This document shows positions 348-55,467 of a stretch of 64,000 bases of DNA, in pieces. The notes below the pieces were generated by a model. It worked only from the letters and a program-made list of their open reading frames with translations. It did not search any database and had not been told where the DNA came from. Origin of the DNA: an uncultured Pelagibacteraceae bacterium (GTDB taxonomy: Bacteria > Pseudomonadota > Alphaproteobacteria > Pelagibacterales > Pelagibacteraceae); contig CACGIZ010000002.1 of assembly GCA_902573235.1 (NCBI GenBank), positions 1 through 64,000 of the forward strand, given 5' to 3'. The translations under genes and the position numbers were made by a program. The number at the start of each line of letters is the position of its first letter. Position 1 is the stretch's first letter.

Positions 348-1646
348 ATGAGTGAAAAAATTTTAGTGCCTGTGCTTGGAGAAAGTATCAATGAAGCTAC
401 TGTATCAAAATGGTTAAAAAAAGAAGGTGATGCAGTTGAAGCTGATGAACCAATCGTAGAATTAGAAACGGATAAAGTTAATTTAGAAGTACCCTCACCT
501 GTCTCCGGGACTTTGACAGAAATAAATTCAAAAGATGGCTCTATAGTAGAAGTTGGTGCTTTATTAGGATCTGTATCAGAGAATGGTTCTACAATGAAAA
601 AAGTAGAGAAAATTGAAAAAATTAAACCAACAATAGAAAAAGATAACGTAATTAAGTTAGAAACACAAAATGATGAAGAAGAAACTCAAATTTTTGAGGA
701 GAAAATTGAAGTTGAAGATGCAGATGAAGCGCCACTAGTTCTTACAAAGGAAATAGAAGAGGAACCACTTAAAATGGAATCAAGGAGCGATCAAAGTTTG
801 TCTCCAGCAGTTAGAAAAATAGTTGCAGAAAATAAAATTGATATTTCATCAGTTGAAGGATCTGGAAAAGACGGGAGAATTTTAAAAGGCGACTTGATAG
901 ATTTAATGGGAGTCAATCCACCTCCTTCAGAGAGAAAAATTAAGTATGGTCAAGAAGAAAAAATTAAGATGACGAGATTAAGACAAACAATTGCCAAAAG
1001 ATTAAAGCAAGCCCAAGAAAATGCAGCTTTATTAACTACCTTTAATGAAGTTGACATGTCAAACATTATGGAAATGAGAAAAGAAAATCAGGAAGATTTT
1101 CAAAATAGATATGGTGTAAAATTGGGCTTTATGTCTTTTTTCGTAAAAGCTTGTGTAGTTGCTTTAAAAAATTTCCCTGCAGTCAATGCTGAAATAGAGG
1201 GAGATACGATAGTTTACAAAAATTATTACAACATAAGTTTTGCAGTTGGAACTGATAAAGGCCTTGTAGTACCTGTATTAAAAAATGCTGATGAACTATC
1301 TTTTGCAGATATTGAAAAAAATATTAAACAAATCTCCGAAAAAGCCAAAGAGGGCAAACTTACAATAGAAGATTTACAAGGAGGAACATTTACAATTAGC
1401 AATGGTGGTGTTTATGGCTCAATGTTATCTACACCGATACTTAACTTACCTCAATCAGGTGTGTTGGGTATGCACAATATTGTTGATAGGCCAATCGTTG
1501 TTGATGGTGAAATTAAAATCAGACCAGTAATGTATTTGGCATTATCTTACGATCATAGAATAATTGATGGTAAAGAATCAGTTTCATTTTTAAAGATGAT
1601 TAAAGAAAATTTAGAGGATCCAAGAAGGTTGTTTTTAGATATTTAA
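348..1646 (+). CDS. sucB: 2-oxoglutarate dehydrogenase E2, dihydrolipoamide succinyltransferase
   Basis: Lipoyl domain [12 protein letters not shown]3-binding domain, catalytic [10 protein letters not shown]. Confidence 0.96.
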
Positions 1647-52329: not shown

Positions 52330-52776
52330 TTATTTAATTTCTATAAGTCTTTTTTTCTTATGATCTGGTAAAATTCTTTCACAAGCTACAATCAAAAGAC
52401 CATCTTTTAACTCAGCTCCATTTACTTTTACATCATCTGCAATAGTAAATGATCTAGCGAATTGTCTTTGTGAAATACCTCTGTGAATTACTTCACCATC
52501 ATCATTTTTGTTTTCAGACTTATTAACTTGTTTTGTTCTTACAGTTAATAAATTATCTTCAAACTCAACTTCAACATCATCTTTGTTAAAACCCGCAAGG
52601 GCAACTTCTATAGCGTAGTTGTCTTTACCTGTTTTTCTTATGTTATATGGCGGATAATTTGACTGCATTGTCAAACCTCCGTTGCCTAACATATTTTCAA
52701 ATTGGTCAAACATATCGTCAAAACCAATTGAAAAAGGTCTTAATGAGTTGAATATAGATAGATCCTTACTTGTCAT
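52330..52776 (-). CDS. Small heat-shock protein Hsp20 (IbpA-like)
   Basis: Alpha-crystallin domain YAIEVALAGFNKDDVEVEFEDNLLTV, HRGISQRQFARSF. Confidence 0.95.
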   Translation of the reverse strand: MTSKDLSIFNSLRPFSIGFDDMFDQFENMLGNGGLTMQSNYPPYNIRKTGKDNYAIEVALAGFNKDDVEVEFEDNLLTVRTKQVNKSENKNDDGEVIHRGISQRQFARSFTIADDVKVNGAELKDGLLIVACERILPDHKKKRLIEIK

Positions 52777-52827
52777 ATATCCTCCTTTATTTAAGCAAGT
52801 TTATTTTGAAAGTCCCATTAGGCGACT
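52777..52827 (-). promoter_or_regulatory. Candidate ROSE-like RNA thermometer in hsp20 5' UTR
   Basis: Hairpin CUUGCUU-AAAUA-AAGGAGG masks the SD with a central G-G opposition; preceding hairpin AGUC(G)CC-UAAU-GGGACU. Confidence 0.7.
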
Positions 52828-52837
52828 AACAATATTT

Positions 52838-52865
52838 ATGTGGGAATTATTTAAATTTTTTCAAG
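52838..52865 (-). promoter_or_regulatory. Sigma32-like heat-shock promoter for hsp20 (CTTGAAA-N14-CCCACAT)
   Basis: Both elements on the - strand with 14-nt spacer, upstream of the hsp20 leader. Confidence 0.7.
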
Positions 52866-52873
52866 ATACAAAA

Positions 52874-54949
52874 TTAAATTTTTTTTGAAATTTTAAGTGC
52901 AAATGCATAATCAAATGCTATTTCCTCTATAGCACCATCTCTTCCAGATTTTCCACCATGTCCAGCATTCATTTCAGTTTTAAGTAAAAGAAGATTATTA
53001 TCAGTTTTATAATCTCTAAGTTTTGCAGTAAACTTTGTAGGCTCATCAAATAAAACTCGATTATCACTCAAACTTGTTGTGATCAAAATATGAGGATAAT
53101 CCATTTTTCTTATATTTTGATAAGGTGCATACGAAAAAATGTAATCAAAATGTTCTTTGTTATCTTGAGCATTTCCAAATTCATCAAATTCCCCTATTGT
53201 TAAGGGGAGTGAGTGATCTAAGTTTGTAGTTAATGAATCTACGAACGGGACCGCCATTATCATACCTAAAAATAATTCAGGTTCTTTATTTACAACTGCT
53301 CCCATTAATAGACCTCCAGCAGAACCACCCATTCCAATTATTTTTGACTTGGAAGTGTATTTTTTATTTATTAAAAATTTTGCAACTGCAATATAATCTT
53401 CAAATGTATTTTTTTTGTTAAGGAGTTTTCCTTCTTTCCACCATTTCATTCCTTTTTCCATTCCACCTCTTATGTGTGCTGTTACCCAAATAATGTCTCT
53501 ATCGATTAGACTAAATTTAGTTGATGAAAAATCGGGTGACATTGAACTTCCGTAAGATCCATACCCGTATAAAAGTAAATTAGCGGATCCATCTACATTT
53601 GTTTTTTTGTGCCTGGTTAAAGTTATTGGAACCAACCTTCCATCATGAGAAGAACATTCTAATCTTTCAACAACATAATTATCAGGATTATGACCAGATG
53701 GAATCTCTTGTTCTTTTACTAATTTTTTTTCTTTTGTTTTAAGATTATACAGATAAGTTTTTCCAGGAGTTTTTGGAGATGAGTAAGACAAATATACTAA
53801 GTCAGTATTTCTATCTCGTTGAATAAGTGAAACACCAGGAACAATAACTTTTTCATCAGAAAAATTAAGTTCCTCTTCAATTTCAGAATTTATATTTTTT
53901 ACAAATAATTTCCCTAAGGCGTTTGATTTTTCAGCTCTGATGACCCAGTTATTTAGAAAAGTTAAACCACCAATTAAAACCTCATTTTTTGGTGCTATAT
54001 AGATCTCCCAATTTTGATTTAATAAATCTTTACATCTTTCAATTTTAAAATCCTCTGCATTTTCATTTGTATGACAATAAAAATAATTATCCCAGGAGTT
54101 TAATGAATAAATAATGCCTTTTTTTCTTTTCTTAATTAATTTTGGATTTGGTTTTTGTTCATTGACTGGAAAGAAATATTGTTCAGATGTATTATGATCA
54201 GAAGTGGTAATAAAAAAATACTTTTCATCAGAGCTTAAATTAATTCCAACTGTGAAAGCTTCACTTTTTTCCTCAAAAATAAGCTCGTCATCCTTAATAT
54301 TTGTTCCGAGCTTATGTCTAAAAATTTTTCTAGGTCTATGAAATTCATCAAGCTTTGAATAAAAAAAATATTTGTCATCTAAACTAAAAGTAATACTTCC
54401 ACTAGTCTCTTCGATCTTTTCTGTAACTAATTCTCCGGATGTGATATCTCTTATATATATTGTAAAATATTCAGAACCTTTTAAATCTAATGAGTAACCC
54501 AAGTATTGATCGTTGTTGCTCACTTCTAAATCGCCAATGCCAAAATACTCTGTTTTTAATTTTTCTTTTTCTTTATCTCCGTTCCAAATTTCTTCTATTT
54601 CATTTGAATTAATTTTTTTTCTTAGTTTAATAGAATAATTTCCTTCAGCGGTTGTTTTTGTCCAATATTCATATTGTTTATCTTTAAATGGTAATGACTC
54701 ATCATCTAATTTAATTCTACCCTTAATTTCATTGAACAATTCTTTTTGACATTTTTTTGTATCTTTTAAATTATGTTCTGTATAAGAATTTTCTTCTTCA
54801 AGATACTTTCTTACATCGGGTAATAACTTTGAGCTATCTTTCAAAACTTCCAAAATGTTTTCTTGATGAACCCAGCTATAATTATCTTCCCAGGTTACAT
54901 TGTGACAAGATTTTAACTCTGGTTTTTTTTTAAGTTGTGGTATTTTCAT
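52874..54949 (-). CDS. ptrB: Oligopeptidase B (S9A prolyl oligopeptidase family)
   Basis: RGGMEKGMKWWKEGKLL, GGSAGGLLMGAV. Confidence 0.92.
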   Translation of the reverse strand: MKIPQLKKKPELKSCHNVTWEDNYSWVHQENILEVLKDSSKLLPDVRKYLEEENSYTEHNLKDTKKCQKELFNEIKGRIKLDDESLPFKDKQYEYWTKTTAEGNYSIKLRKKINSNEIEEIWNGDKEKEKLKTEYFGIGDLEVSNNDQYLGYSLDLKGSEYFTIYIRDITSGELVTEKIEETSGSITFSLDDKYFFYSKLDEFHRPRKIFRHKLGTNIKDDELIFEEKSEAFTVGINLSSDEKYFFITTSDHNTSEQYFFPVNEQKPNPKLIKKRKKGIIYSLNSWDNYFYCHTNENAEDFKIERCKDLLNQNWEIYIAPKNEVLIGGLTFLNNWVIRAEKSNALGKLFVKNINSEIEEELNFSDEKVIVPGVSLIQRDRNTDLVYLSYSSPKTPGKTYLYNLKTKEKKLVKEQEIPSGHNPDNYVVERLECSSHDGRLVPITLTRHKKTNVDGSANLLLYGYGSYGSSMSPDFSSTKFSLIDRDIIWVTAHIRGGMEKGMKWWKEGKLLNKKNTFEDYIAVAKFLINKKYTSKSKIIGMGGSAGGLLMGAVVNKEPELFLGMIMAVPFVDSLTTNLDHSLPLTIGEFDEFGNAQDNKEHFDYIFSYAPYQNIRKMDYPHILITTSLSDNRVLFDEPTKFTAKLRDYKTDNNLLLLKTEMNAGHGGKSGRDGAIEEIAFDYAFALKISKKI

Positions 54950-54963
54950 TTTGATACAAATAT

Positions 54964-55467
54964 ATGAATATAATAATTTATACAGTAGTTATATTAGCTA
55001 TTTTTTATTTACTCTTAAGATTTATTAGTAATGTTTCATCAAAAAAATTATCAAAAGGTCTTAGGATTTTAATAATTATTGGGTTGATAGTTCTTGCCAT
55101 ACTATTTGCAGTAGCAGGGAGATTTATATTAACTTTACCCCTTACATTAGCAAGTCTAGCATTGTTGAAGTTAAAAGGTTTATCAATTTTTCAACTAATA
55201 TCACTTTATAGATTAATACAAACTCTAAGAAAGTCTGGAAGGTTCTCTTTCAATCAAAAAAATTTTAACAACCAATCTTCAATATCTGTCTCAGAAGCAT
55301 ATAAAATTCTAAATCTAGATATGAACAAAAAAATTTCCAAGGAAGATGTAAACAAGGCTTACGTTAAAATACAAAAAAAAATACACCCAGATGTTTCACC
55401 TGAGACCTCAAGATTATCTTCAATTGTAAATGAGGCTAAAGATATTGTTTTGAATGATATTTCTTAA
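54964..55467 (+). CDS. Membrane-anchored DnaJ-domain protein (TIM14-like)
   Basis: N-terminal TM segments; C-terminal J domain with HPD (KKIHPDVSPE). Confidence 0.82.
   Translation: MNIIIYTVVILAIFYLLLRFISNVSSKKLSKGLRILIIIGLIVLAILFAVAGRFILTLPLTLASLALLKLKGLSIFQLISLYRLIQTLRKSGRFSFNQKNFNNQSSISVSEAYKILNLDMNKKISKEDVNKAYVKIQKKIHPDVSPETSRLSSIVNEAKDIVLNDIS

Follow-up and report, generated by a model that had tools for sequence, protein, structure and literature searches.

A probable short ROSE-like RNA thermometer in the hsp20 leader of SAR11 bacteria

SAR11 bacteria rank with the most abundant cells on Earth and possess only a small number of regulators. In a 64,000-nucleotide (nt) stretch of DNA from an uncultured Pelagibacteraceae (SAR11) bacterium (assembly GCA_902573235.1, contig CACGIZ010000002.1, positions 1 to 64,000; hereafter the window), the leader of the small heat-shock gene hsp20 raises the question of whether translation of this gene could respond to temperature through its own messenger RNA (mRNA). 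An original prediction, made from the letters of the window, had proposed a ROSE-like RNA thermometer at this site. Our analysis leads to the same reading: judging from sequence comparison and predicted folds, the leader is probably (about 80%) a short two-hairpin ROSE-like RNA thermometer. Such a thermometer on the only hsp20 of SAR11 would link sea temperature to chaperone supply directly, with no protein in between.

The Shine-Dalgarno hairpin and its conservation

The leader ends in a hairpin, here called hairpin II, in which CUUGCUU at 52799-52793(-) faces the Shine-Dalgarno (SD) sequence AAGGAGG. Sequence, strand and coordinates of the leader are as originally claimed, including the ATG, AAGGAGG, CUUGCUU and an upstream hairpin at 52811-52827. 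The proposed terminal hairpin that pairs the SD is also the fold predicted by RNAfold, (((.(((.....))).))), at -3.0 kcal/mol and with a G opposite a G; on a 29-mer its z-score is -3.5, with 2 of 200 shuffles as good. Among the 61 open reading frames of at least 100 amino acids in the window, hsp20 is the only one with UYGCU before its SD. An AGGA-type SD precedes five of the 61, hsp20 among them, so that its strong AAGGAGG is unusual in this genome. It is the comparison across relatives, rather than folding energy alone, that places the leader clearly beyond chance.

For this comparison, 80 close hsp20 loci from Pelagibacteraceae genomes were joined to that of the window. All 81 loci share a common two-hairpin plan. 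The upstream hairpin is followed by an A/U-rich linker and then by hairpin II, in which an A-rich loop that varies among loci separates ACUUGCUU from AAGGAGG or AAGGAGU. UUGCU and AGGA are kept together in 74 of 74 distinct SAR11 leaders, and the UYGCU..AGGA pair of motifs is present in 165 of 189 distinct leaders overall, as a motif-anchored count. In these 165 leaders, the first pair outside UYGCU/AGGA is paired in 99% (as C-G, U-G, A-U, G-U or G-C); shuffles reach at most 95%.

The same outer pair bears on the register of hairpin II. The original prediction placed a central G opposite a G, which RNAfold reproduces, but comparison with relatives speaks for a different one. At the outer pair, the AGGAGU clade has A-U, and several other Pelagibacteraceae lineages have C-G in place of the outer A.G (AACCUUGCU/AGGAGG). 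These changes favour the classical ROSE arrangement, in which a single G is bulged, over a symmetric G.G opposition. The window's own hairpin permits both registers (X, -3.0 kcal/mol; Y, -0.5 kcal/mol).

We built a covariance model, R1, for the SAR11 leader and used it on the source genome, the order, the class and phages. In the source genome the element was found once (E 1e-13). The next best match (C9:36049, E 0.025) was attributed to chance, as no notable gene starts after it. R1 matches 218 of 297 genomes of the order, including 128 of the 150 more complete ones, and the hsp20 gene is absent from 13 of 13 checked Pelagibacteraceae genomes without the element. In other alphaproteobacterial families, R1 matches lie upstream of ibpA-type genes (L119-L123). 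The hairpins are thus kept throughout the Pelagibacteraceae and beyond, and the lack of conservation that would have spoken against the original prediction is not seen.

Hairpin I, the promoter and other roles for the leader

The second hairpin that had been predicted just upstream is also present and conserved. Its core, AGUCGCC-UAAU-GGGACU at 52827-52811, folds at -6.0 kcal/mol with a z-score of -2.0; the lower stem of this hairpin I contains two U.U mismatches in the window's own sequence. The consensus across Pelagibacteraceae loci is GUNNGUC-G-CC-UNAU-GG-GGCNNAC. In an alignment of 48 leaders, 97.7% of hairpin I cells are paired and four pairs have two-sided compensatory changes. Cells with such changes number 14, against 3.3 in shuffles (0 of 500 as good), and the pairing is lost when the partners are slid out of register. 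The hairpin I module, in which a bulged G separates the lower stem from a C-C/G-G cap, was found in 210 of 224 distinct leaders and in 6 of 1,450 shuffles. The G-C-C..G-G around the bulged G is kept in 187 of these 210 leaders, and the stem beneath varies freely. One match to the module (L125) was judged a coincidence, since its GC-rich stem is followed by T8 and resembles a terminator.

The conserved bulged-G cap suggests that hairpin I is more than a generic hairpin, and recognition by the small heat-shock protein (sHsp) is one candidate role. The leader might then be mainly a protein-binding autoregulatory site, to which the sHsp would bind in its own 5' untranslated region (UTR), repressing translation until clients titrate it, with the apical bulged G as recognition site. 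E. coli IbpA does repress its own translation via its 5' UTR (PMC10474464), and in hairpin I not only the pairing but also the sequence is conserved, beyond the needs of a mere mRNA cap. However, self-repression in E. coli acts together with the thermometer, so that autoregulation would be additive rather than exclusive. Binding by SAR11 Hsp20 is putative, and the leading signature of the leader, UYGCU opposite the SD, is characteristic of thermometers. We consider this role unlikely as the main one. The conserved bulged-G hairpin also offers a handle on the role of 5' hairpins in ROSE elements, an acknowledged open question (PMC3669281).

The 97 nt between hsp20 and a same-strand oligopeptidase-B-like gene, whose end is at 52874, contain in order CTTGAAA, 14 nt, CCCACAT, hairpin I and hairpin II (Table 1). 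The ATG occupies 52776-52774(-). The first two elements match, as a pattern, a CTTGAAA-N11-16-CCCCATNT-like promoter of the sigma32 regulon. This sigma32-like pattern occurs in 97% of distinct SAR11 leaders, in 100% of other Pelagibacteraceae leaders and in 0-1% of shuffles. From its position we infer a transcription start near 52831, which gives a leader of about 55 nt. The original prediction had put it at about 60 nt and called it minimal, which is not unusual next to the functionally tested Pseudomonas ibpA elements of 61-62 nt (PMC3669281). The gene is the sole HSP20 gene in the assembly, which is 75% complete. Its product is closest to IbpA models, and its match to the IbpA-like model NF008013 is below cut-off.

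Table 1. Positions of the hsp20 gene, its leader elements and its promoter in the window.
Feature	Position	Strand	Basis
hsp20, ibpA-type small heat-shock protein, 148 amino acids	52330..52776	-	PF00011, 1.3e-16
ACA AGU AAG G (codons 2-4 plus the first base of codon 5), potential alternative to the SD as partner of the anti-SD	52764..52773	-	invariance, duplex energy
Shine-Dalgarno AAGGAGG, 3' strand of hairpin II	52781..52787	-	sequence, fold, conservation
Anti-SD strand ACUUGCUU of hairpin II, with ROSE motif UUGCU and extra G at 52796	52793..52800	-	fold, conservation
Hairpin I, GUUAGUC-g-CC-UAAU-GG-GACUUUC, bulged G at 52823	52807..52830	-	fold, compensatory changes, module scan
-10 of sigma32-like promoter, CCCACAT, 14-nt spacer	52838..52844	-	sequence, promoter pattern
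-35 of sigma32-like promoter, CTTGAAA	52859..52865	-	score 13/14 in window

The location of hairpin I at the putative 5' end of the transcript also allows for a simpler function, since hairpins there can protect mRNA, as suggested for hairpin I of Pseudomonas (PMC3669281). The inverted repeat could accordingly be an mRNA-stabilising hairpin, or a DNA operator, and the SD hairpin incidental. Yet the compensatory stem changes, which include G.U pairs, and the conserved bulge point to RNA rather than to a DNA operator. UYGCU is invariant in SAR11, and the phage leaders described below are mostly without a sigma32 promoter, yet keep hairpin I and, in about 80%, UYGCU. We regard this explanation as highly improbable.

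Possibly competing codons, models and known thermometers

In every one of the 81 loci (the window and L002-L081), codons 2-4 of hsp20 read ACA AGT AAG without a change at any of the nine bases; no other run of three invariant codons occurs in the gene. Over the 120 positions with a conserved amino acid, the mean top-codon frequency is 0.79 and nine codons are invariant. AGT accounts for 15% of serine and AAG for 26% of lysine codon usage. With CUUGCUU, codons 2-4 and the adjoining base can form a duplex of seven uninterrupted pairs, modelled at -7.3 kcal/mol, compared with -4.6 kcal/mol for the SD pairing and a median of -1.2 kcal/mol for synonymous encodings. The complementarity tracks a change of the anti-SD to CCUUGCU and survives an altered protein start in L427 (ATGAGTAAG). 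It was not found in the other alphaproteobacteria or phages compared and is confined to the Pelagibacteraceae. Codon pairing with the anti-SD is thus a possible Pelagibacteraceae-specific competing state and not part of the core mechanism.

This state invites the reading of the leader as a bistable switch instead of a simple zipper. CUUGCUU would have two alternative partners. Paired with the SD, it would hold the leader in the off state; paired with AAGUAAGG of codons 3-5, it would leave both the SD and the AUG exposed in a loop, the on state. Temperature would shift the balance between the two. The invariance and choice of the codons, the duplex energy and the persistence in L427 agree with such a switch, as does a roughly 100-fold drop in modelled SD and AUG opening at 35 °C upon synonymous recoding. 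All these energies are model values, however, and other pairings with the coding region can hide the AUG in the same model. Codons near a start may also be conserved for other reasons, and the complementarity does not extend to other alphaproteobacteria or phages. The switch is therefore a possibility, though a doubtful one.

Several points weigh against the thermometer reading. The leader of the window is unmatched by any Rfam ROSE model (RF01832, ROSE_2; RF02523, ROSE_3; the original ROSE family) and does not reach the gathering threshold; the Rfam search suggested with the original prediction was thus negative. Modelled alone, the leader keeps its SD closed up to 45 °C (probability of opening 0.03). 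With the coding sequence included, the SD competes with other pairings, which makes nearest-neighbour models ambiguous. Hairpin II is nearly invariant within the genus, so the SAR11 set contains no covariation there, and covariation arises from more distant loci. Finally, the temperature response and the control of SD accessibility are properties that we infer, as are the roles of hairpin I and of the codons in the mechanism.

Compensatory changes in hairpin II appear once other alphaproteobacteria and phages are included, and at the level of the alignment the invariance of its non-SD strand in SAR11 is a signal in itself. With the coding region in the model, opening of SD and AUG rises from about 0.0007 at 15 °C to about 0.03 at 35 °C; these values are illustrative only. 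Removal of the extra G in silico closes the SD (model only). Absolute modelled temperatures were not used as evidence, because adding the codons altered the picture obtained with the leader alone. As a positive control for the Rfam search, E. coli ibpA scores 100 bits with ROSE_2, above threshold. ROSE_3, with a cut-off of 43, matches a related alphaproteobacterial leader at 28.6 bits and that of methylophage Melnitz at 34.1 bits. As the window is unmatched and its relatives fall below this cut-off, the leader is best described as ROSE-like and not as a recognised Rfam member.

The Pseudomonas ibpA study characterises short ROSE-like elements by a leader of about 60 nt that precedes an sHsp gene and carries the motif, an extra G and a second, stable hairpin on its 5' side (PMC3669281). 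The SAR11 leader lies in the 5' UTR of a small heat-shock gene. Its 3'-proximal hairpin sets U(U/C)GCU, with an extra, bulged G, against the SD, an additional 5' hairpin makes two in total, as in the short type, and the helices are backed by compensatory changes, those of hairpin I within the genus and those of hairpin II across families. The ROSE-like reading of the original prediction thus agrees with this description in sequence and structure (PMC3669281).

In architecture, the SAR11 leader is best read as closest to the Pseudomonas ibpA elements and Rfam ROSE_3. It shares with the former the sHsp gene, sigma32 control, the restriction to two hairpins, U(U/C)GCU against the SD, the extra G and a stable first hairpin. 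It differs in that its hairpins are weaker and AT-rich and its anti-SD is also complementary to codons 3-5. With ROSE_3 it has in common the two hairpins, a hairpin I whose bulged G sits where the lower stem meets a C-C/G-G cap, and the GCU anti-SD in the 3' hairpin, although the ROSE_3 model fails to match the window leader even at E 10. The ROSE_2 element of E. coli ibpA has the same CUCGCU/AGGAG core (CUC-G-CU/GGAG), with the bulged G in the same register, whereas its hairpin I is without the bulged-G/CC module and R1 gives no E. coli match. The Synechocystis hsp17 thermometer is likewise a very short leader before a small heat-shock gene (PMC4477652).

The following mechanism would combine these features. 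Judging from the promoter sequence, heat would first increase transcription from the sigma32-type promoter. The resulting leader of about 55 nt would begin at hairpin I, stable and with its conserved bulged G. Hairpin II would mask the SD in the cold by pairing ACUUGCUU with AAGGAGG, leaving one guanine unpaired or G.G-opposed. As temperature rises, this imperfect helix would open gradually and translation would begin. Translational gating of this type by hairpin II is established for Pseudomonas ibpA, where the second hairpin alone is enough for thermoregulation and deletion of the extra G represses (PMC3669281). In the Pelagibacteraceae, codons 3-5 would rival the SD as partner of the anti-SD, which may shift the leader towards its open state.

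Phage leaders and related loci

We searched 50,697 phage records by tblastn with the window protein and found hsp20, a core gene of T4-like cyanophages (PMC3037559), in 507 of them. The two-hairpin leader lies directly before the hsp20 start codon in Pelagibacter phages HTVC008M and Mosig, methylophage Melnitz, cyanophages S-RIM12, P-TIM40, P-SSM4, S-RIM2 and S-SM1, and most IMG/VR relatives (L226, L227, L229, L230-L300, L303-L405, L415-L426). The hairpin I module was found in 98 of the 102 distinct phage leaders, and UYGCU..AGGA in 81; many of these leaders are close relatives, so that the counts are not independent events. In cyanophage leaders the hairpin I cap is usually UUCG and the anti-SD UCGCU. 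Their R1 scores are weak singly (17-28 bits), yet the matches are nearly always at the right place. These leaders resemble the proteobacterial two-hairpin type and differ from the Synechocystis hsp17 thermometer (PMC4477652).

The promoters of the phage leaders differ from those of the bacteria. The share of leaders with a sigma32-like promoter is 10% in phages, compared with 97-100% in Pelagibacteraceae, and a TATAAATA-like late (T4-late-like) box, with at least 7 of 8 positions matching, occurs in 67% of phage leaders against 18% of shuffles. The leader is kept despite this different context, which argues for selection on the RNA. We tentatively propose, at somewhat less than even odds, a two-hairpin thermometer family common to hsp20 of SAR11, other alphaproteobacteria and marine T4-like phages. 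Many phages would have swapped heat-shock transcription control for a late-type promoter and kept translational control, and the Pelagibacteraceae would have gained codons 3-5 as a third partner, making a bistable switch. Should the leaders function in phages, lytic marine phages would use a bacterial-type RNA element to adjust a chaperone to the temperature of the water. A literature search, which took in few subscription journals and is weak evidence, turned up no description of a thermometer in the hsp20 leaders of SAR11 or of marine phages; the phage distribution of the leader and the competition by codons 2-4 both look unreported in the literature searched.

Some phage leaders (L398-L405, L250, L279, L293) keep hairpin I and have AACUGUCU in place of UYGCU before AAGGAGG, a possible non-canonical anti-SD variant. 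In a second family of the order, hsp20 is present and its leader contains UCGCU but differs otherwise: in L453-L456, UCGCU nearly abuts AAGGAGGAUUAAA, in an apparently different, very short-looped arrangement.

The leader of SAR11 rpoH was inspected as a second candidate thermometer and was rejected, as neither an SD nor a UYGCU hairpin was seen in it. In two other alphaproteobacterial genomes, ROSE-like hairpins lie directly upstream of rpoH (sigma32), at 1501-1563(-) of L124 and 1501-1559(+) of L130. These hairpins, ACAUUGCUU/AAGGAUGU and AUAUUGCUU/AAGGAUAU, differ by a compensatory C-G to U-A change and could represent a thermometer on the heat-shock sigma factor itself. In the window, a membrane protein with a C-terminal J-domain (PF00226) is encoded near hsp20, beyond the oligopeptidase B gene, at 54964-55467(+).
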